Assembly: GCF_013466785.1 (NCBI RefSeq)
Contig: NZ_CP059163.1
Location: 2,852,001-2,916,000, forward strand
DNA from: Nocardioides marinisabuli
Lineage (GTDB): Bacteria; Actinomycetota; Actinomycetes; Propionibacteriales; Nocardioidaceae
Reading direction: 5' to 3'
Length of the DNA: 64,000 bases
Shown here: one piece after another, positions 3,637 to 10,871 of the stretch
How positions within the stretch are numbered: position 1 is the first letter of the stretch
How the letters are laid out: each line of letters starts with the position of its first letter
The notes under the pieces: generated by a model
Database searches by the model: none
What the model saw: the letters and a program-made list of their open reading frames with translations, nothing else
Told to the model about the DNA's origin: nothing
Program-made: the position numbers and the translations under genes

Positions 3637-3659
3637 CCGCCGCCGGGCCCCGGCGGCGG
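3637..3659. promoter_or_regulatory. Perfect inverted repeat next to the first cobalamin-riboswitch promoter
   Basis: CCGCCGCCGG, 3-nt spacer, CCGGCGGCGG: a perfect 10-bp dyad ending 1 nt before the -10. A similar dyad occupies the same place at 5938-5959. The matching position suggests an operator rather than a gatB terminator, and there is no T-run. Confidence 0.45.
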
Positions 3660-3665
3660 TACGCT
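3660..3665 (+). promoter_or_regulatory. -10 element before cobalamin riboswitch 1
   Basis: TACGCT follows the dyad directly and starts about 20 nt before the conserved riboswitch core. The second copy has TATGCT at 5960-5965 in the same relative position. Confidence 0.55.
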
Positions 3666-3683
3666 CCGCTCACCAACTCCACA

Positions 3684-3782
3684 TGCACGCCCTCGCAGGG
3701 GGAAGCCGGTCGAACTCCGGCGCTGACCCGCAACCGTGGGCCGTCCCAGGACGGCGAGCCGGAGCACCCTCGTGCGGCGTAC
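3684..3782 (+). promoter_or_regulatory. Cobalamin (B12) riboswitch, copy 1
   Basis: The core carries hallmark adenosylcobalamin-riboswitch blocks in order: GGGGGAAGCCGGT, CTCCGGCGCTGACCCGCAAC, then GCGAGCCGGAGCACC. GCACG near 3686 can pair with CGTGC near 3773 to close it. The edges are approximate. The 39 nt that follow (3781-3819) are identical to 6077-6115 in copy 2. A CCGCTG-ctcg-CAGCGG hairpin near 3841-3856 lies directly before the ribosome-binding GAGAGGA of the next gene, which suggests control at translation. Confidence 0.93.
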
Positions 3783-3867
3783 CGATCACACGCTGTCGAG
3801 GACCGCAGCGGTGTCGCCCTCGCCGCGCGTGGGGTCGTCGCCGCTGCTCGCAGCGGAGAGGAACCCC

Positions 3868-4983
3868 GTGAAGCACCCCCTCACCCGTGGTGCGGCGCTC
3901 GTCGCCGGCACCGCCACGGCCCTGGCCGTCGTGGCCGCCGGCACGCCCGCCGTGGCCGGCACGGCTGACAAGCAGCAGGCCGCCGCCGACTGGCTGGCCG
4001 GCGAGCTCGACGGCGGTCTCGCCGTCGGGTCGTACACCGACCAGCAGGGCGCGACCGTCGAGTACGACGACTACGGCCTGAGCATCGACACCGGTCTGGC
4101 GCTGCGCGCCCAGGGCCTCAAGGCCCGCAAGATCGCGAAGATCAGCGACGCGCTCGCCGGCGCCGTCGACAGCTACACCCGGGGCGACGAGTACGACCCC
4201 GAGGGCGTGTACGCCGGTCCGACGGCCAAGCTGGCCTCCTTCGTGGTCCGCACCGGCGGGGACCCGGCCGCCTTCGGCGGCGTCGACCTCGTCGAGCGCC
4301 TCGAGGGCCTGGTCGCCACCCAGGCCCCGGTCGCCGGACGCCTGCAGGACTCCTCCTCCTACGGCGACTACGCCAACACCATCGGTCAGGCCTTCGCCGC
4401 CCAGGCGCTGCAGTCCGTGGGCGCCGAGCAGGCCGCGCCGGTGACGTCGTACCTGCTGCAGCAGCAGTGCGAGGTCGGCTACTTCCGGCTCTCGTTCGCC
4501 GCCGCCGACGCCCCCGAGCAGGGCTGCGACGCCGACCCCGGCGACCCCGAGCAGGGCGCCGACGTGACCGCGCTGGTGGTGCTGAACCTGCTCGAGATCG
4601 AGGACCCCTCGGCCGAGGTGCGCACCGCGGTCGACGACGCCACCGCGTGGCTGGTCAGCCAGCAGAGCGACGGCGGCGCCTTCGACGGCGGTCCCGACGC
4701 CGGGGTGAACTCCAACAGCACCGGCCTGGCGGGCTGGGCCCTCGGCGAGGCCGGCGTGTGCGGCAAGGCGCAGGGTGCCGCGCAGTGGGTGAAGAAGCAG
4801 CAGGCCGGCGGCCGGGACAAGGCCCTGGCCCAGGAGAAGGGCGCGATCGCCTACGACCGCGCCGCCTTCCTGACCGGCAAGAAGAAGGGCATCACCTCGG
4901 CGAAAGCCGACCAGTGGCACCGGGCGACCGCCCAGGCCGCCCCGGCGCTGGAGAACCTGCGCAAGGTGGAGTGCAAGGCGTGA
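3868..4983 (+). CDS. Secreted alpha/alpha-toroid protein, candidate corrinoid-binding (transcobalamin alpha-like)
   Basis: 371 residues from GTG 3868, with GGAGAGGA as ribosome-binding site. Residues 1-31 form a Sec signal (AGTPAVAG). The mature protein is all-helical with repeats of the prenyltransferase/terpene-cyclase toroid type (GLSIDTGLALRA, NTIGQAFAAQAL, DVTALVVLNLLEIE, NSNSTGLAGWAL). The cyclase catalytic DxDD motif is absent. Eukaryotic transcobalamin and intrinsic factor use the same toroid fold as their alpha domain, and the gene follows a B12 riboswitch. Corrinoid binding is therefore inferred, not shown. It has no anchor and overlaps the beta-domain gene by 4 nt (GTGA). The protein at 6159 is a lipoprotein paralog. 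Confidence 0.72.
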   Translation: MKHPLTRGAALVAGTATALAVVAAGTPAVAGTADKQQAAADWLAGELDGGLAVGSYTDQQGATVEYDDYGLSIDTGLALRAQGLKARKIAKISDALAGAVDSYTRGDEYDPEGVYAGPTAKLASFVVRTGGDPAAFGGVDLVERLEGLVATQAPVAGRLQDSSSYGDYANTIGQAFAAQALQSVGAEQAAPVTSYLLQQQCEVGYFRLSFAAADAPEQGCDADPGDPEQGADVTALVVLNLLEIEDPSAEVRTAVDDATAWLVSQQSDGGAFDGGPDAGVNSNSTGLAGWALGEAGVCGKAQGAAQWVKKQQAGGRDKALAQEKGAIAYDRAAFLTGKKKGITSAKADQWHRATAQAAPALENLRKVECKA

Positions 4984-5927
4984 GCCTGCGCCGCTCCCGC
5001 ACCGGCTCGGTCCTGCTGTCCGCCGTCGTCGCGCTCGGCGCGGCGACGGCGGGGCTGGTGGCGGCCCCGCCGACGGCGAGCGCCGCCACCTGCAGCGACG
5101 CCGGCGGCGTCTCGGTCGTCGTCGACTTCAAGGGCCTCGGTGGCGGGCAGCAGACGGGCTGCGTCACCGGTGAGGGCGGCAGCAGCGCCGCGGCGATCTT
5201 CTCCGCGGCCGGGGTCTCGCTGACCCGGGCCCGCAGGCAGCAGGGCTTCGTGTGCCGGGTGCAGGACGTGCCCGCCGACGACCCGTGTGTCAACGCCTCG
5301 CCCGCCGATGCCTACTGGTCGCTGTGGTGGTCCGACGGCTCGTCGGGCTCGTGGAGCTACTCCAGCCTGGGCGTCGACCAGCTGGAGATCCCCGAGGGCG
5401 GCTCGGTCGGCTTCGCCTGGGACGACCAGTCGGGCCAGGTGCAGCCCGGCACCGCCCCGCCGACCAAGCCGGCCGCCGCGCCCTCGCCCAGCAGCTCGGG
5501 CGGCTCGGGGGGCTCCGGTGGCTCGGGCAGCACGGGCTCGACCTCGGGTGGCTCAAGCGGCTCGAGCGGCACGGGCTCGACGACCCCGGCGACGCCCGCG
5601 CCGTCCGGGGGCAGCGCCAGTGCCGGCGCCGCCGTCGAGGACGAGGCCACCACCGGGGCCGAGCAGCAGGGCCGCAAGAGGACGAAGCAGGACAAGGACG
5701 CGACGGGGCGGTCGAAGGCCGGGCGCGACGAGGAGCCCGAGGAGCCCGGGGAGAGCGCCGGCGCCGACGACCAGGACACCGTGGTCGACCTCGACGACAC
5801 CGAGCCGGTCGCGGTGCCCGCGACCGACTCCGACGGGCTGCCGACCTGGGTCGCCCCGGCGGTGCTCGCCCTGCTGGGGCTGGGCCTGGCCGGCGTCGCG
5901 GTCGTACGCCGCCGTCGTCGGCTGTGA
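4980..5927 (+). CDS. Membrane-anchored DUF4430-like beta-domain protein, candidate partner of the toroid protein
   Basis: 315 residues, GTG overlapping the upstream stop. The signal peptide ends near residue 36 (TASAATC). Residues 37-150 form a compact domain with four cysteines (38, 61, 92, 103) and YWSLWWSDGSS followed by LEIPEGGSVGFAW, resembling the DUF4430-type domain that forms the beta half of transcobalamin and intrinsic factor. A Ser/Gly/Pro/Thr-rich then charged linker of about 120 residues follows, ending in one membrane helix and an RRRRRL tail. It would hold the domain at the outer membrane face. No sortase LPxTG motif is seen. The domain assignment is from memory of the family, unsearched. 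Confidence 0.65.
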   Translation: MSLRRSRTGSVLLSAVVALGAATAGLVAAPPTASAATCSDAGGVSVVVDFKGLGGGQQTGCVTGEGGSSAAAIFSAAGVSLTRARRQQGFVCRVQDVPADDPCVNASPADAYWSLWWSDGSSGSWSYSSLGVDQLEIPEGGSVGFAWDDQSGQVQPGTAPPTKPAAAPSPSSSGGSGGSGGSGSTGSTSGGSSGSSGTGSTTPATPAPSGGSASAGAAVEDEATTGAEQQGRKRTKQDKDATGRSKAGRDEEPEEPGESAGADDQDTVVDLDDTEPVAVPATDSDGLPTWVAPAVLALLGLGLAGVAVVRRRRRL

Positions 5928-5937
5928 GGCTGGCATG

Positions 5938-5959
5938 CCGCCGTCGGGACCGGCGGCGG
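5938..5959. promoter_or_regulatory. Inverted repeat next to the second cobalamin-riboswitch promoter
   Basis: CCGCCG-T-CGG / CCG-G-CGGCGG, a dyad with one T/G mismatch, ends directly at the -10. It corresponds in position and sequence to 3637-3659. Confidence 0.45.
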
Positions 5960-5965
5960 TATGCT
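5960..5965 (+). promoter_or_regulatory. -10 element before cobalamin riboswitch 2
   Basis: TATGCT, in the same position relative to dyad and riboswitch as TACGCT in the first copy. Confidence 0.55.
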
Positions 5966-5982
5966 GCACCCACCAACCACAC

Positions 5983-6078
5983 CCGCGCACGTCGGGGGAA
6001 GCCGGTCGAAGTCCGGCGCTGACCCGCAACCGTAGGCCGCCCCAGGGTGGCGAGCCGGAGCACCCGCGTGACGCGCAC
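5983..6078 (+). promoter_or_regulatory. Cobalamin (B12) riboswitch, copy 2
   Basis: It has the same conserved blocks as copy 1: GGGGGAAGCCGGTCGAAGTC, CCGGCGCTGACCCGCAACCG and GGCGAGCCGGAGCACC. CGCGCACG and CGTGACGCG can close the outer helix. The downstream 39 nt are identical to copy 1. It precedes the lipoprotein toroid gene and the ECF transporter, so both transcription units of the cluster carry the sensor. Confidence 0.93.
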
Positions 6079-6158
6079 CGATCACACGCTGTCGAGGACC
6101 GCAGCGGTGTCGCCCCTGCACCACCGGGTCGCCGCCGCGTGCAGCGGAGGGGAGCCCC

Positions 6159-7292
6159 GTGAGGAGCCAGAGCCGTCGAGCCCCGCTCGCCGCAGCCCTC
6201 GCCGTCGCCCTGCTGGGTGCGACCGCGTGCGGCGCGGAGGAGCCGGCGGCCCCCGAGGCAGCCCCCCGGGCCGAGCAGCCGCCCGAGGCCGCGCTGGCCG
6301 GCGACTGGTTGTCCGAGCAGCTCACCGACGGGGTCGTGCGCAACGAGCAGTACGACTTCGACGACCACGGCCTGAGCATCGACGTGGCCCTCGCGCTGCG
6401 CGCCCTCGGCCGCCACGAGGCCACCGTCGCGCAGGTCGCCGACGCGCTGGACGGTGCGGTCGAGGCCTACACCAGCGGTGGCACCGACGGCCTCTACTCC
6501 GGCGCGGTCGCCAAGCTGGCCTCGTTCATGACGCTCGCGGGGGAGGACCCGACCGACGTCGGCGGCGCCGACCTCGTCGAGCGCCTCGAGGGCCTGGTCA
6601 GCAGCCGGCCTGCCTCGGCCGGCCGCCTGCAGGACACCGCCCCCGGCGCCGACGTCTCCAACACCATCGGCCAGGCCTTCGCCGCCCACGCGCTCGCCGC
6701 GGCCGGCTCGGCGGCCGCCGAGCCGGTCACGGACTACCTGCTCGAGCAGCAGTGCGCCGACGGCTGGTTCCGGCTCCTGCTCACCGAGGACGCGCGGGCC
6801 GCTGACCAGTCCTGCGACGCTGGGGCGGCCGCGCGCACCGACGACCGCAGCGTCCCCGACACCGACGCGACGGCGCTCGTGGTCCTCTCGCTGCTCGAGC
6901 TCGAGGACCCCCCGCCGCAGGTCGTGGCGGCCGTCGACCGAGCAGCGGCCTGGCTCGTCGAGCAGCAGGCCGCCGACGGCAGCCTCACCGGCGAGCCGGC
7001 CAGCGGATCGACGGTCGCCAGCGCCAACTCCACCGGCCTCGCCGGCTGGGTGCTGGGGCGGCTCGGCTCCTGCGCCGAGGCCGCCCGCGCCGCGCAGTGG
7101 CTCAGCGACCTGCAGGTGCCGGCGGGTGAGCGCGAGGCCGGTGCGGTCGCCTACGAGGAGGCGGCGTACGACGCGCTGCCGGGCACCGGTCGCATCAGCA
7201 CCCCCGAGCGCGACCAGTGGCGCCGCGCCACTGCCCAGGCGGCCCCCGCCCTGGAGCACCTCGAGCCCGGGCGCTGCGAGGCCGGGTCGTGA
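6159..7292 (+). CDS. Lipoprotein alpha/alpha-toroid protein, candidate corrinoid-binding
   Basis: 377 residues from GTG 6159 with GGAGGGGAG as ribosome-binding site. It is a lipoprotein: a hydrophobic stretch ending in GATAC puts the lipidated Cys at 24. The body aligns block by block with the upstream toroid protein (GLSIDVALALRALG, AKLASF, DLVERLEGLV, NTIGQAFAAHAL, DATALVVLSLLELE, NSTGLAGWVLG, QWRRATAQAAPALEHL), so the two are paralogs. Both have Cys in the same blocks (QQC...SCDA, SCAEA, RCEAG). GTG 7289 of the ECF T gene overlaps its stop, tying it to the transporter. It may present ligand to the transporter. Confidence 0.72.
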   Translation: MRSQSRRAPLAAALAVALLGATACGAEEPAAPEAAPRAEQPPEAALAGDWLSEQLTDGVVRNEQYDFDDHGLSIDVALALRALGRHEATVAQVADALDGAVEAYTSGGTDGLYSGAVAKLASFMTLAGEDPTDVGGADLVERLEGLVSSRPASAGRLQDTAPGADVSNTIGQAFAAHALAAAGSAAAEPVTDYLLEQQCADGWFRLLLTEDARAADQSCDAGAAARTDDRSVPDTDATALVVLSLLELEDPPPQVVAAVDRAAAWLVEQQAADGSLTGEPASGSTVASANSTGLAGWVLGRLGSCAEAARAAQWLSDLQVPAGEREAGAVAYEEAAYDALPGTGRISTPERDQWRRATAQAAPALEHLEPGRCEAGS

Positions 7293-8425
7293 CCAGCACC
7301 GCGAGCCCGGCGACGACCCCCGGGGCCCCCGTCGGCGGCAACGCCCGGTTGCCGCGCGACCTGCACCCGGTGGCCTGGTGGGTCTGGGCGATCGGCCTGG
7401 CCGCGGCCGCCTCGGGCACCACCAACCCGTTGAGCCTGCTGCTGCTGGTCGGCGTCGCCGCCCTCGTGGTCTCGGCCCGCCGCTCCGACCAGCCCTGGGC
7501 GGGCTCGTTCCGGCTCTACCTGTGGTTGGGGCTGGCGATCGTGGTGGTCCGGGTGCTCTTCCGCATCCTGCTCGGCGGTGGGTACGCCGGCGGGCCGGTG
7601 CTGCTCGACCTGCCCGAGATCCCGCTGCCCGACGCCGCCGCCGGCATCGCGCTGCTCGGCCCGCTGACCTCGCAGGCCCTGCTCGCCGGTCTGTACGACG
7701 GGATGCGGCTGGCCACCATCGTGGTGTGCATCGGCGCCGCCAACTCGCTGGCCAACCCCAAGCGGCTGCTGCGCTCGGTGCCCCCGGCGCTCTACGAGAT
7801 CGGCACCGCCCTCGTGGTGGCGGTGACGGTGCTGCCGCAGCTGGCCGACTCGGTACGCCGGGTGCGCGCCGCGCAGGGCCTGCGGGCCGGCGCCGGTGGC
7901 CGCACCGGCCTGGTGCGGCGCTCGCTGGTGCCGGTCCTCGAGGACGCGCTCGACCGCTCGTTGGCGATGGCGGCCGGCATGGACGCGCGCGGCTACGGCC
8001 GCAGCCCCGAGCAGGGGCGTGGCGCCCGGCTGCTGACCGGGTCGCTGATGGTGGCCGGGCTGGTCGGGGTCTGCGTGGGCGTCTACGCCCTGCTCGACAC
8101 GACCGCGCCGCGGGTGCTGGCGCTGCCGATGCTGGGCCTCGGCGTCGTCCTGGCGGTGGCGGGGCTGGCCACGGCCGGCCAGCGCGTCGAGCGCACCCGC
8201 TACCGGCCCGACCGCTGGCGCTGGCCCGACCTGGTCGTGGCGTCGAGCGGCGTCGGCGCCGGGGCGCTCGGCCTGTGGGTCGCCCGCGAGCAGCTCGCCA
8301 TCGCCCACCCGCCGCTCGACGGCGTACCGACCGTGAGCGCCGCGGTGCTGCTGGCCACGGGCCTGGCCCTGGCCGGTGGGCTCGCGGCGCCCGACGCCGC
8401 CGTCCGGGGCGGGGGAGCGTCGTGA
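7289..8425 (+). CDS. ECF transporter transmembrane (T) subunit
   Basis: 378 residues, GTG overlapping the previous stop (GTGA). It has multiple membrane helices plus the two cytoplasmic coupling signatures of EcfT/CbiQ proteins: AQGLRAGAG near residue 192 and AGMDARGYGR near residue 230. It couples the ATPase subunits to the substrate-binding S subunit. It is longer than usual because two or three extra C-terminal helices follow the coupling region. It is the second gene of a four-gene riboswitch-controlled unit. Confidence 0.88.
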   Translation: MTSTASPATTPGAPVGGNARLPRDLHPVAWWVWAIGLAAAASGTTNPLSLLLLVGVAALVVSARRSDQPWAGSFRLYLWLGLAIVVVRVLFRILLGGGYAGGPVLLDLPEIPLPDAAAGIALLGPLTSQALLAGLYDGMRLATIVVCIGAANSLANPKRLLRSVPPALYEIGTALVVAVTVLPQLADSVRRVRAAQGLRAGAGGRTGLVRRSLVPVLEDALDRSLAMAAGMDARGYGRSPEQGRGARLLTGSLMVAGLVGVCVGVYALLDTTAPRVLALPMLGLGVVLAVAGLATAGQRVERTRYRPDRWRWPDLVVASSGVGAGALGLWVAREQLAIAHPPLDGVPTVSAAVLLATGLALAGGLAAPDAAVRGGGAS

Positions 8426-10029
8426 TCGAGCTGCGCGGCATCCGCTTCGGCTACGCCACCGGGCCCGACGACGAGCGCCGCATCCTCGACGGCGTCGACC
8501 TGGTCGTCGAGGAGGGCGAGCTGGTGGTGGTCTCCGGCCCCACCGGCGTCGGCAAGTCGACCCTGCTCGGGGTCGTCACCGGGCTGGTGCCGCGCTTCTC
8601 CGGCGGCGTCCTCGAGGGCGACGTGCTGCTCGACGGCGAGAGCATCGTGCACCGGCCGCCGCGCGAGCGGGCCCACGCGATCGGGTACGTCGGGCAGGAC
8701 CCGGCCCGCGGCTTCGTGACCGACACCGTGGAGGAGGAGCTGGCCTACGGGATGGAGCAGCTCGGCCTGCCCGGCGAGACGATGCGCCGTCGTGTCGAGG
8801 AGACCCTCGACCTGCTCGGCATCGCCGACCTGCGCTCCCGCGACCTGCGCACGCTCTCGGGCGGCCAGCAGCAGCGGGTGGCCATCGGCTCGGTGCTGAC
8901 CATGCACCCCCGCCTGCTGGTGCTCGACGAGCCGACCTCGGCGCTCGACCCCACCGCCGCCGAGGAGGTGCTGGCCACGCTGACCCGCCTGGTGCACGAC
9001 CTGGGTGTCTCGGTGCTCCTGGCCGAGCACCGCCTCGAGCGCGTGGTGCCGTTCGCCGACACCATGTGCCTGCTGCCCGGCGACGGGCGGCTGCTGGTGG
9101 GCCCGCCCGCCGAGCTGCTGCGCACCTCGCCGGTCGCGCCGCCGATCGTCGAGCTGGGCCGCGCCGCCGGCTGGTCGCCGCTGCCGCTGAGCGTGCGCGA
9201 GGCGCGCCGCGCCGCCAGGTCGCTGCGCCCCCGGCTGGTCGACCCGCCGGAGGAGCGCGCCACGGTGAGCCACGACCCCCGCACGGGCCTCGTGGCCCGC
9301 GGCCTGACCGTCAGCCACGGCGCGACCGTCGCGGTGCGCGAGGTCGACCTGAGCCTGCCGCCAGGCCGGGTGACCGCGCTGATGGGCCGCAACGGCGCCG
9401 GCAAGTCGTCGCTGCTGTGGGCGCTGCAGGGCACCGGTCGCCGCTTCGCCGGAGCCGTCACCGCGGCGGGCACCGACCCGGCCTCGGTCCAGCCCGCCGA
9501 GCGCAGGGCGTTGGTGGGCCTGCTGCCCCAGAACGCCGCCGACCTGCTCTACCTCGAGACCGTCGACGAGGAGCTGGACGCCGGCGACCCCGCCGGCTCC
9601 CCGGGCGCCTGTCGGGCCCTGCTCGACCGGCTGGTGCCCGGCATCGACGGCGGCGCCCACCCCCGCGACCTCTCCGAGGGCCAGCGCCTGGCGCTGGCCC
9701 TGGCCCTGGTGGTGGCGGCCCGCCCCGGGGCGGTGCTGCTCGACGAGCCCACCCGCGGCCTCGACTACTCGGCCAAGGCCGAGCTGGCCCGGGTGCTGCG
9801 GGCCCTGGCCGCCGAGGGGCACGCCGTCCTGGTCGCCACCCACGACGTCGAGTTCGTGGCCCAGGCCGCCGACGACGCCGTGGTGATGGCCGAGGGCGAG
9901 GTCGTCTCCTCGGGGCCGGCCCGCCGCGTGGTCGTCGAGTCGCCCGCCTTCGCGCCCCAGGTCACCAAGGTGCTGGGCGCGCCGTGGCTGCGCGTCGACG
10001 AGGTCGTCACCGCCCTGGAGCCGGCGTGA
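8422..10029 (+). CDS. ECF transporter ATPase, two ABC domains fused in one chain (A-A')
   Basis: 535 residues, GTG overlapping the T gene. Domain 1 has Walker A GPTGVGKST (39-47), signature LSGGQ (145-149) and Walker B LLVLDE (165-170). Domain 2 has Walker A GRNGAGKSS (322-330), a variant signature LSEGQ (417-421) and Walker B AVLLDE. Most ECF modules encode the two ATPases separately; here they are fused. It powers substrate release from the S subunit encoded next, which it overlaps by 4 nt. Confidence 0.9.
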   Translation: MIELRGIRFGYATGPDDERRILDGVDLVVEEGELVVVSGPTGVGKSTLLGVVTGLVPRFSGGVLEGDVLLDGESIVHRPPRERAHAIGYVGQDPARGFVTDTVEEELAYGMEQLGLPGETMRRRVEETLDLLGIADLRSRDLRTLSGGQQQRVAIGSVLTMHPRLLVLDEPTSALDPTAAEEVLATLTRLVHDLGVSVLLAEHRLERVVPFADTMCLLPGDGRLLVGPPAELLRTSPVAPPIVELGRAAGWSPLPLSVREARRAARSLRPRLVDPPEERATVSHDPRTGLVARGLTVSHGATVAVREVDLSLPPGRVTALMGRNGAGKSSLLWALQGTGRRFAGAVTAAGTDPASVQPAERRALVGLLPQNAADLLYLETVDEELDAGDPAGSPGACRALLDRLVPGIDGGAHPRDLSEGQRLALALALVVAARPGAVLLDEPTRGLDYSAKAELARVLRALAAEGHAVLVATHDVEFVAQAADDAVVMAEGEVVSSGPARRVVVESPAFAPQVTKVLGAPWLRVDEVVTALEPA

Positions 10030-10871
10030 GCACCCCGGTGCTGACCCGCGTCGCAGCCGTGCCGCTGGGCCGGCGCTCGGCGCTCGTGCTCGCCCTGGCC
10101 TCGGTGGCCGGGCTGATGATGCTGGTCTGGCCGCTGCTGCTGCAGGTGCCCGAGGGCACCCGGGTCGACCCGCCGTTCCTCTTCCTGGCGCTGCTGCCCG
10201 TCGTGGTCGCGGTGGTGCTGGCCGAGGTCAGCGAGGGCGGCCTCGACGCCCGGGTGCTGGCGGTGCTCGGGGTGCTCAGCGCCGTCAACGCCCTGGCCCG
10301 GGCCATCTCCCCGGGCATCGCCGGGGTCGAGCTGGTCTTCTTCCTGCTGGTGCTCGGCGGCCGGGTCTTCGGGCCCGGGTTCGGGTTCGTGCTGGGCTGC
10401 ACCAGCCTCTTCGCCTCCGCCCTGGTCACCGCCGGGGTCGGGCCGTGGCTGCCCTACCAGATGCTGGTCGCGGCCTGGGTCGGCATGGGCGCCGGCCTGC
10501 TGCCGCGCCGCCCCCGCGGGCGCAGCGAGATCGCGATGCTGGTCGTCTACGGGATCGTGGCGGCCTACGTCTTCGGCGCCCTGATGAACCTGTCGGGCTG
10601 GCCGTTCACCTTGGGGGTCGCGGTGCCCGGCCACGAGGGCGACCTCAGCTACGTCGCCGGTGCGCCGGTGCTCGAGAACCTGCACCGGTTCGCGATCTAC
10701 ACCCTGCTGACCTCGACCGGCGGCTGGGACACCCTGCGGGCGGTCACCAACACGGTGGCGATCGTGCTCCTGGGGCCCTCGATCCTGGCCGTCCTGCGCC
10801 GGGCGGCCCGCCGGGCCACCGTGACCGGCAGCGTGACGGGCAGCGTGACGGGGGTCAGGGACGGATCCTGA
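10026..10871 (+). CDS. ECF transporter substrate-binding S subunit, probably for corrinoids
   Basis: 281 residues, GTG overlapping the ATPase stop. About six to seven hydrophobic helices are visible (LVLALASVAGLMMLVWPLLL, FLALLPVVVAVVLAEV, VFFLLVLGG, FVLGCTSLFASALV and others). The C-terminus is basic with a short VTGSVTGSVTG repeat from a 12-nt triplication at 10820-10855. I do not recognise a named S family such as BtuM or CbrT. Corrinoid specificity is inferred only from the riboswitch and toroid neighbours. Its 3' end overlaps the convergent dehydrogenase gene by 17 bp. Confidence 0.75.
   Translation: MSTPVLTRVAAVPLGRRSALVLALASVAGLMMLVWPLLLQVPEGTRVDPPFLFLALLPVVVAVVLAEVSEGGLDARVLAVLGVLSAVNALARAISPGIAGVELVFFLLVLGGRVFGPGFGFVLGCTSLFASALVTAGVGPWLPYQMLVAAWVGMGAGLLPRRPRGRSEIAMLVVYGIVAAYVFGALMNLSGWPFTLGVAVPGHEGDLSYVAGAPVLENLHRFAIYTLLTSTGGWDTLRAVTNTVAIVLLGPSILAVLRRAARRATVTGSVTGSVTGVRDGS

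Follow-up and report, generated by a model that had tools for sequence, protein, structure and literature searches.

To our knowledge, the gathering of vitamin B12 outside the membrane by Gram-positive bacteria has been little described. The closest precedent is a prediction by Burroughs, Balaji, Iyer and Aravind (2007; PMC1796856), who propose as B12 scavengers bacterial proteins in which SLBB domains of the transcobalamin type are fused, in either order, to toroid domains and are encoded with CbiO and CbiQ genes. In that paper's passages on this SLBB clade the stated distribution is low-GC Gram-positives, planctomycetes and some euryarchaea, with Actinobacteria unnamed, and the bacteria that carry it are said usually to be without B12 synthesis; the word 'riboswitch' is absent from the text. 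The initial annotation of the locus analyzed here named no described system of exactly this kind; these passages speak against full novelty, since toroid/SLBB/CbiO/CbiQ scavenging of B12 is already predicted there. On the import side, the vitamin B12 transporter ECF-CbrT (eLife 2018; PMC5997447) is, as reported, likewise an importer of the ECF type. In animals, transcobalamin, haptocorrin and intrinsic factor carry both domains in one chain, toroid first. Matching families are also listed in NCBIfam as SCO2321 and SCO2322 (NF053823 and NF040672), with printed descriptions that name no function; the locus tags from SCO2321 onward are neighbours in Streptomyces coelicolor. The open-access literature searched yielded nothing relevant for the locus tags SCO2321–SCO2325 and no description of the actinobacterial system.

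The locus lies in a 64,000-nt stretch of the Nocardioides marinisabuli genome (the window; contig NZ_CP059163.1). We confirm six genes within 3673–10871 on the + strand, which form two adjacent units with a cobalamin riboswitch ahead of each, and we regard the two units as coupled because four gene junctions share 4-base overlaps. All the parts first annotated are present: an exported toroid, a membrane-anchored beta protein, a lipoprotein-like toroid, and an ECF transporter that is complete by Pfam, with T, two ATPases and S. Reading the translations by eye suggests Sec-type export signals, a lipobox-like LLGATAC in toroid b, and for the beta protein a layout of signal peptide, beta-grasp domain, long low-complexity linker and C-terminal membrane segment. 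We consider it probable that the locus is a system for capturing and importing corrinoids that is repressed by coenzyme B12 at the level of translation.

Table 1. Features of the locus, in window coordinates.
Feature	Position	Strand	Description
Cobalamin riboswitch 1	3673..3815	+	Aptamer and P13-like hairpin; RF00174 28.4 bits, E 1.1e-4; model R1 133 bits (training-set site)
Hairpin CCGCTG-CTCG-CAGCGG	3841..3862	+	By sequence reading, continues into the toroid a ribosome-binding site, which is purine-rich
Toroid a	3868-4983	+	Alpha/alpha toroid, exported; 371 aa from a GTG start; fold via the homologous L125 domain
Beta protein	4980-5927	+	315 aa; predicted transcobalamin/SLBB-type beta-grasp domain at about residues 38-155
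Cobalamin riboswitch 2	5969..6111	+	RF00174 27.3 bits, E 2.2e-4; model R1 125 bits (training-set member)
Toroid b	6159-7292	+	Second toroid, 377 aa, lipobox-like N-terminus
ECF-T (CbiQ family)	7289-8425	+	PF02361 38 bits, cut-off 25
ECF-AA', fused double ATPase	8422-10029	+	PF00005, two stretches, E 1.4e-47
ECF-S, substrate-specific membrane protein	10026-10871	+	PF12822 (ECF_trnsprt) 36.7 bits, cut-off 30.7; conserved family A7

As far as the SLBB clade is characterized by Burroughs et al., the locus shares with it the transcobalamin-type beta-grasp, the alpha/alpha toroid, export and neighbours of the CbiO/CbiQ type. It differs in belonging to Actinomycetota, in keeping toroid and beta domain on separate proteins, in having cobalamin riboswitches and an S component, and in residing in a genome with cob genes. 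Compared with ECF-CbrT as described, the difference is that proteins for extracellular capture are encoded with the importer. What is new is a branch outside Pfam, its split form and its riboswitch control, while the idea of B12 scavenging itself is partly prior. Taken as a whole, the interpretation first put forward is partly supported: it holds for the beta fold, the toroid partner, the conserved set of riboswitch and ECF genes and the occurrence of fusions in the same gene context, is putative as to a corrinoid bound between two proteins, and does not hold for full novelty.

The riboswitches are best considered first. At the Rfam gathering threshold there is no match within the window. Both leaders match RF00174 by E-value, but their scores (Table 1) lie below the gathering threshold of 31.5 bits; because the E-value search and a custom model (R1) concur, we do not read the thresholded null as absence. 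Model R1 was built from 34 leaders that include both window leaders, and across the 4.17-Mb genome it gives these two 133 and 125 bits, with the remaining four matches at 30.6, 30.6, 19.2 and 18.8 bits. Core sequence and structure of the RF00174 type are conserved and recur ahead of these genes (alignment A5). The CCGCTG/CAGCGG hairpin overlaps the ribosome-binding site in our computation and is likely an OFF-state sequestor; a second CAGCG element that corresponds to it is present in 32 of 36 leaders. When intracellular adenosylcobalamin is plentiful, it would bind both leader RNAs and the P13 hairpin would form, leaving the downstream hairpin free to mask the ribosome-binding site, so that translation of both units would stop.

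The neighbourhood is conserved well beyond this genome. Gene set and riboswitch recur together with the ECF importer at 33/33 other loci of the genus (the riboswitch at 31 by motif and at 2 by model R1) and at 52 of the 53 complete named-genome loci outside the training set of R1; a length filter had removed L171 from the 54 complete named loci before R1 was applied. This bears out the co-occurrence that the initial annotation expected, and such conservation rules out chance. A complete T/AA/S transporter is present in 54/78 named loci, and all 54 have toroid and beta domain as well; at more distant loci model R1 finds the riboswitch in 17 of 20. The beta domain itself occurs in 189/215 sampled genomes of the genus and, phylum-wide, in 47 of 396 genomes and 38 of 237 genera; in seven of these 47 genomes the match is short and weak.

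For the fold of the beta protein, sequence comparison gives little. None of 114 beta domains matches any Pfam family at E ≤ 0.1, PF14478 (DUF4430) included; the window protein has no relevant Pfam match, and profiles of the domain searched against the PDB do not find transcobalamin. Only structure prediction could therefore decide the fold. The NCBI family SCO2322_fam (NF040672) does match 106/114 of the domains at E ≤ 0.01, the window protein itself being unmatched. Alignment A3 omits two L173 fragments. An AlphaFold2 model of the window domain from a 114-row alignment (pLDDT 82.1, pTM 0.78) was searched with Foldseek against 350,542 PDB chains: rows 1–17 consist of chains of transcobalamin, haptocorrin and bacterial 3u7z, each with probability 1.00, and row 18 drops to 0.47. 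The E-values are modest (three rows at E ≤ 0.001), with TM-scores of 0.49–0.56 by query length. VIA Z-scores range from 9.3 to 10.6 for 15 rows of transcobalamin, haptocorrin, intrinsic factor or 3u7z, the next row having 6.3. The modelled secondary structure (E13-19 E27-33 H40-46 E51-53 E61-64 E82-88 E112-118) can be read, from its strand order, as a beta-grasp in which a beta-hairpin follows the helix as an insert, a feature that Burroughs et al. (2007; PMC1796856) give for the transcobalamin-like SLBB clade. The model thus supports the transcobalamin beta-domain fold, and by predicted fold the domain belongs with DUF4430. The annotation of this protein as DUF4430-like is in that sense upheld as to fold and not as to the PF14478 profile.

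The toroids required a homologue. Toroid b is 49% identical to toroid a (alignment A6), and the window toroids give weak, sub-cut-off matches to Pfam toroid families. The initial annotation had pointed to PF01122, the eukaryotic cobalamin-binding family, with which neither toroid a nor toroid b has a match at E ≤ 1; among all 72 toroids of A6 it matches 13 at E ≤ 0.1 (best 4.8e-4), whereas SQHop_cyclase_C matches 58, more often and better. All 72 match SCO2321_fam (NF053823) at E ≤ 0.001, the window toroids at 33–37 bits against a cut-off of 300 bits. We modelled a natural toroid/beta fusion, L125, with pLDDT 92.6 and pTM 0.79. The alignment used for this contained 5 fused, 70/100 toroid and 15/108 beta rows, each toroid row keeping some 4.5 residues out of place; another with 60 beta-only rows, which placed about 64 toroid residues per row in beta columns, was dropped. 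From the homologous domain of the L125 model and from toroid profiles, the partner is supported as an alpha/alpha toroid. Among the matches listed for the fused model, the folds nearest to the toroid are terpene cyclases (Z about 25), and the best 50 rows of either structure search contain neither transcobalamin nor intrinsic factor. Profile searches of the PDB behave similarly, returning squalene cyclases and complement domains, with no transcobalamin in all 40 rows for the fused chain or among the best 60 of 90 rows for the toroid. A toroid motif, NSTGLA, presumably resembles intrinsic factor.

Fusions of the two parts also occur. Toroid and beta domain lie in a single open frame in 12 loci, as toroid–beta in 5 of 20 and as beta–toroid in 7 of 78, and four of the five toroid–beta fusions carry CWB2 or SLH wall-binding domains. 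Like the animal carriers, these relatives have both domains in one chain, with the same beta-domain fold and toroid fold class; their two-domain stretches measure 413–445 aa, as against 381–414 aa for transcobalamin chains in the PDB. The window differs from the animal carriers in having two separate proteins, though some relatives are fused toroid first; further differences are that the toroid is not specifically closest to transcobalamin and that corrinoid binding is here putative.

On this basis the exported toroid or toroids would correspond to one domain of transcobalamin and intrinsic factor, and the membrane-anchored beta protein, as a separate chain, to the other. They would capture cobalamin or another, related corrinoid on the outside of the membrane, most probably between toroid and beta protein, and pass it to the ECF importer dedicated to it. 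There the S component would carry it inward, with ATP hydrolysed by the fused AA' subunit. Tentatively, and with slightly more doubt than confidence, we propose in full that two separate exported proteins, one a toroid and one a beta-grasp, hold a corrinoid between them and deliver it to the importer: the system would be a split bacterial transcobalamin and its ECF transporter would depend on extracellular binding proteins, with the fused, wall-anchored chains as living counterparts of the stock behind animal intrinsic factor and transcobalamin. The locus points to a candidate, widespread bacterial route for catching and importing B12-like molecules, built on a widespread beta domain that no Pfam family matches and for which NCBI lists matching families but no function. 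The locus is relevant to the possible descent of the animal B12 carriers from a bacterial capture device still extant in split and fused forms, and it offers targets of a size suited to purified-protein work on the possible use of extracellular binding proteins by ECF importers.

Corrinoid could also be imported without being held between two proteins, the beta protein alone serving as receptor for the ECF transporter while the toroids bind another form of corrinoid, strip carriers or aid attachment to the wall. The window does have two toroids for one beta protein. Among eight same-class genomes with the beta domain, four (G065, G400, G282 and G325) are without a toroid genome-wide and the other four have one; of the five checked genome-wide, four have the beta domain only and G142 has a toroid. 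In two toroid-less loci that we read, a small lipoprotein-like beta protein adjoins a T-A-A'-S importer in a single open frame, and model R1 does not find the riboswitch at L112 or L113, both toroid-less loci. Against this stand the fusions in both orders, the confident model of a natural fusion, and the 37 genomes of the genus, in which toroid and beta domain occur together in 34 and are both absent from the same 3. We consider the beta protein acting alone unlikely.

The cargo need not be a corrinoid if the transporter takes up cobalt or another metal. Its T component is annotated as CbiQ, a cobalt transport protein, 3u7z, among the best fold matches of the beta domain, is titled a putative metal-binding protein, and cobalt transporters too are regulated by cobalamin riboswitches, according to the part of PMC3766115 that deals with them. 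Yet the S component matches ECF_trnsprt, with CbiM and CbiN not among its Pfam matches, and the modelled beta domain matches the domain with which transcobalamin binds cobalamin. Moreover, 56 of 59 CobQ-lacking genomes retain the system, compared with 133/156 with CobQ; the former, which presumably cannot complete cobalamin de novo, would gain little from importing cobalt to make B12. This association is weak (Fisher p 0.061 two-sided, 0.038 one-sided), ignores relatedness and includes some CobQ-lacking genomes that are incomplete. Altogether a metal importer seems very improbable. The S component (alignment A7, 33 of 53 S sequences and that of the window) has no sequence match at E ≤ 1 among solved chains in the PDB; CbrT was presumably among the chains searched. 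As to corrinoid supply, the species has cob genes for cobalamin biosynthesis and another riboswitch-led ABC importer, and may therefore not need scavenged B12.

More improbable still are toroids that act as exported cyclase- or glycosidase-type enzymes on corrinoid or envelope and are merely co-regulated with the importer, for although the closest folds and profiles among the matches listed are squalene/terpene cyclases and toroid glycosidases, the toroid is found fused to a transcobalamin-type beta domain and the DxDD site, catalytic in cyclases, is degenerate, which is suggestive only (consensus D-x-D-T; toroid a, GADVTA, retains only the middle aspartate). At the level of the order, matches bearing on co-occurrence of toroid and beta domain were weak and were left out except for one genome, G053, where a toroid match (1.5e-18) lies about 1.2 kb before a weak beta match.

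The six genes form two coupled units with a 4-base overlap at four gene junctions, and we consider it likely that the locus is a corrinoid capture-and-import system. Pfam matches T to CbiQ, finds two ABC domains in AA' and matches S to ECF_trnsprt; its toroid matches for both toroids are weak and below cut-off, and the beta protein has no relevant Pfam match. Signal peptides were seen by reading the protein sequences of the locus, as were a lipobox-like start in toroid b and a C-terminal membrane segment in the beta protein. The end of the beta protein (window 5820-5927), like that of its relatives in loci L043 and L047, carries a common G-L-P-x-W-V followed by the membrane segment and arginines, which is like a sortase motif, yet not one.

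Features of the two gene units at 3673-10871
Unit	Feature	Coordinates	Strand
1	riboswitch	3673-3815	+
1	toroid a	3868-4983	+
1	beta protein	4980-5927	+
2	riboswitch	5969-6111	+
2	toroid b	6159-7292	+
2	ECF-T	7289-8425	+
2	ECF-AA'	8422-10029	+
2	ECF-S	10026-10871	+

The initial annotation had treated toroid, beta protein, riboswitch and ECF importer as one gene set, and this set is indeed conserved. All 33 fetched genus loci contain toroid, beta domain and T, and 32 are complete with AA' and S, the remaining one (L033) being cut off by a contig end; the riboswitch element is present in 33/33 genus loci besides the window, 31 found through a simple motif and two more through the covariance model described below. 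The beta domain occurs in 37/58 related genomes, 34 of these among the 37 same-genus genomes (the window's included), and the toroid profile is positive in the same 34 and absent from the same three. By a hand count that ignores relatedness, the chance that the three losses coincide is 1 in 7770; among these three genomes, G031 has a completeness of just 84%. Over larger samples, the beta domain is found in 189/215 genus genomes and, across the phylum, in 47/396 genomes from 38/237 genera, 7 of the 47 being short matches with E > 1e-4. T, AA and S are complete in 54 of 78 loci from named genomes, and all 54 have toroid and beta domains; these loci were picked by a toroid/beta query, so that the ECF part alone is independent. 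The other 24 have no complete T/AA/S; 18 of them show a toroid with neither T nor S in the stretch, in some cases owing to a contig end.

At the gathering score, Rfam gives zero riboswitches in the window; an E-value search gives each leader an RF00174 match, scoring 28.4 and 27.3 bits (E ~1e-4; gathering score 31.5 bits). We built a covariance model from an alignment of 34 genus leaders, including both window leaders, which as training members score 133 and 125 bits. Beyond the window, the model finds two sites at 30.6 bits and two at 19.2 and 18.8 in the same genome, and in the two stretches around the 30.6-bit sites Rfam reports three RF00174 elements that exceed its gathering score (59.8, 42.3 and 41.5 bits). 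Outside the training set, the model detects the element in 17/20 phylum-level loci, the exceptions being L098 (contig end just upstream of the toroid), L112 and L113, and in 52/53 loci of named genomes, with L119 the sole exception. In 34/34 leaders the aptamer is followed by a hairpin whose arms are of the CGCTG and CAGCG type. A second CAGCG copy leads into a purine-rich stretch 15-19 bases upstream of the next start-type codon in 32/36 leaders, and a complementary stretch upstream of this copy is matched in 26/36. The expression-platform arms covary by eye (CCCGCTG/CAGCGGG, CCTCGCTG/CAGCGAGG, CTCCGCTG/CAGCGGAG). From the leader sequences we infer that these are translational OFF switches; the first hairpin after the aptamer we take to be the P13 kissing hairpin of the cobalamin riboswitch family.

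The beta domain is conserved across 34 aligned genus sequences, with three cysteines and W83, W95 and W117 invariant. Against Pfam, these 34 reach just six families at E <= 1, by one stray member each, and a wider set of 114 beta domains reaches no family at E <= 0.1; NCBIfam SCO2322_fam matches 106 of the 114, with the window protein itself unmatched. AlphaFold2, run on the 114-row alignment, gives a model (pLDDT 82.1, pTM 0.78) whose predicted strands are ordered as in a beta-grasp in which a hairpin follows the helix. The top 17 Foldseek rows against the PDB are transcobalamin, haptocorrin and 3u7z, each at probability 1.00 with the next row at 0.47, although the TM-score by query length is 0.49-0.56 and E <= 0.001 in 3 rows only. 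With VIA, 15 rows (transcobalamin, haptocorrin, intrinsic factor, 3u7z) reach a Z of 9.3-10.6 across 95-99 residues, after which Z falls to 6.3. The transcobalamin-type fold first proposed for the beta protein is thus confirmed for the predicted structure.

The toroid fold is less specific. All 72 aligned toroids match NCBIfam SCO2321_fam, and Pfam assigns SQHop_cyclase_C to 58, Prenyltrans to 48, TED_complement to 34 and the eukaryotic cobalamin-binding family PF01122 to 13 (best E 4.8e-4). A natural fusion, L125 from Actinomadura hibisca, scores 251 bits (toroid) and 97 bits (beta domain) against the genus profiles and is predicted with pLDDT 92.6 and pTM 0.79, the latter moderately suggesting that the two domains pack together. 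The best matches of its toroid half are terpene cyclases (Z ~25), and no transcobalamin is among the best 50 matches listed in the structure searches. These matches make the modelled toroid a genuine alpha/alpha toroid, though one whose fold is not specific to transcobalamin.

Fusions make the best case that the toroid and the beta protein may act jointly. Single open frames (stop to stop) in toroid-beta order occur in 5/20 loci (L099, L100, L103, L110, L114), with a two-domain stretch of 413-445 residues as delimited here, and the beta-toroid order in 7/78. Cell-wall-binding domain 2 (CWB2) is added in L099, L100 and L103, and SLH in L110; these four may be read as wall-anchored transcobalamin-like proteins. 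An Acidimicrobiia MAG has a beta-toroid fusion (L159:9791-11722), without a Pfam match at E <= 0.01, whose end looks like a sortase signal, with LPRTG, a membrane segment and arginines.

Genomes with a beta domain and no toroid count against a strict sandwich. Among eight same-class genomes with the domain in the phylum sample, a genome-wide search found no toroid in G065, G400, G282 and G325; one was found by such a search in G142 and within the locus in G228, G261 and G364. In the toroid-less loci of G065 and G400 (L112 and L113, also without a riboswitch by the model), a small lipoprotein-like beta protein adjoins a single open frame that covers T, A, A' and S and is 1013 and 1196 codons long between stops. 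Locus L116 also has no toroid, and one lies on another contig of the same genome. Capture of the corrinoid in a sandwich between toroid and beta protein is offered as a tentative prediction, with chances a little short of even.

The window's genome has CobQ, CbiE/CbiT, BluB, adenosyltransferase and CobC over cut-off, CobM just under it, and another ABC importer with RF00174 upstream. CobQ is over cut-off in 152/215 genus genomes; four more (E between 1e-68 and 1e-81) were taken as present, giving 156, and 59 as lacking. The system is kept in 56/59 genomes without CobQ vs 133/156 with it (Fisher one-sided 0.038, two-sided 0.061), 6 of the 26 system-less genomes being assigned by difference. Of the three genomes that lack CobQ and the system alike, G596 has a completeness of just 57%; several more of the genomes without CobQ are incomplete too. 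The pattern leans weakly towards uptake of finished corrinoid over cobalt. In the same genome, an ABC importer trio (L202:2399-5365; G000:C1 ~96.4-99.4 kb) matches NCBIfam 'putative F420-0' transporters, all below cut-off, and has an RF00174 riboswitch upstream (42.3 bits); the label may hide a corrinoid importer.

The initial annotation knew of no described system of this exact kind. In 2007 Burroughs et al. (PMC1796856) had already put forward the general idea, for other bacteria; to this the present locus adds its branch, the split arrangement, the pair of riboswitches and the spread. A record titled Spirochaetaceae MAG (L145) has a riboswitch motif, toroid, beta domain, T and part of AA', either by transfer or from a mis-binned contig. 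In L097, from the same family as the window, a second beta domain lies directly 3' of the S gene (10513-10863), giving paralogous beta proteins there without a second toroid.
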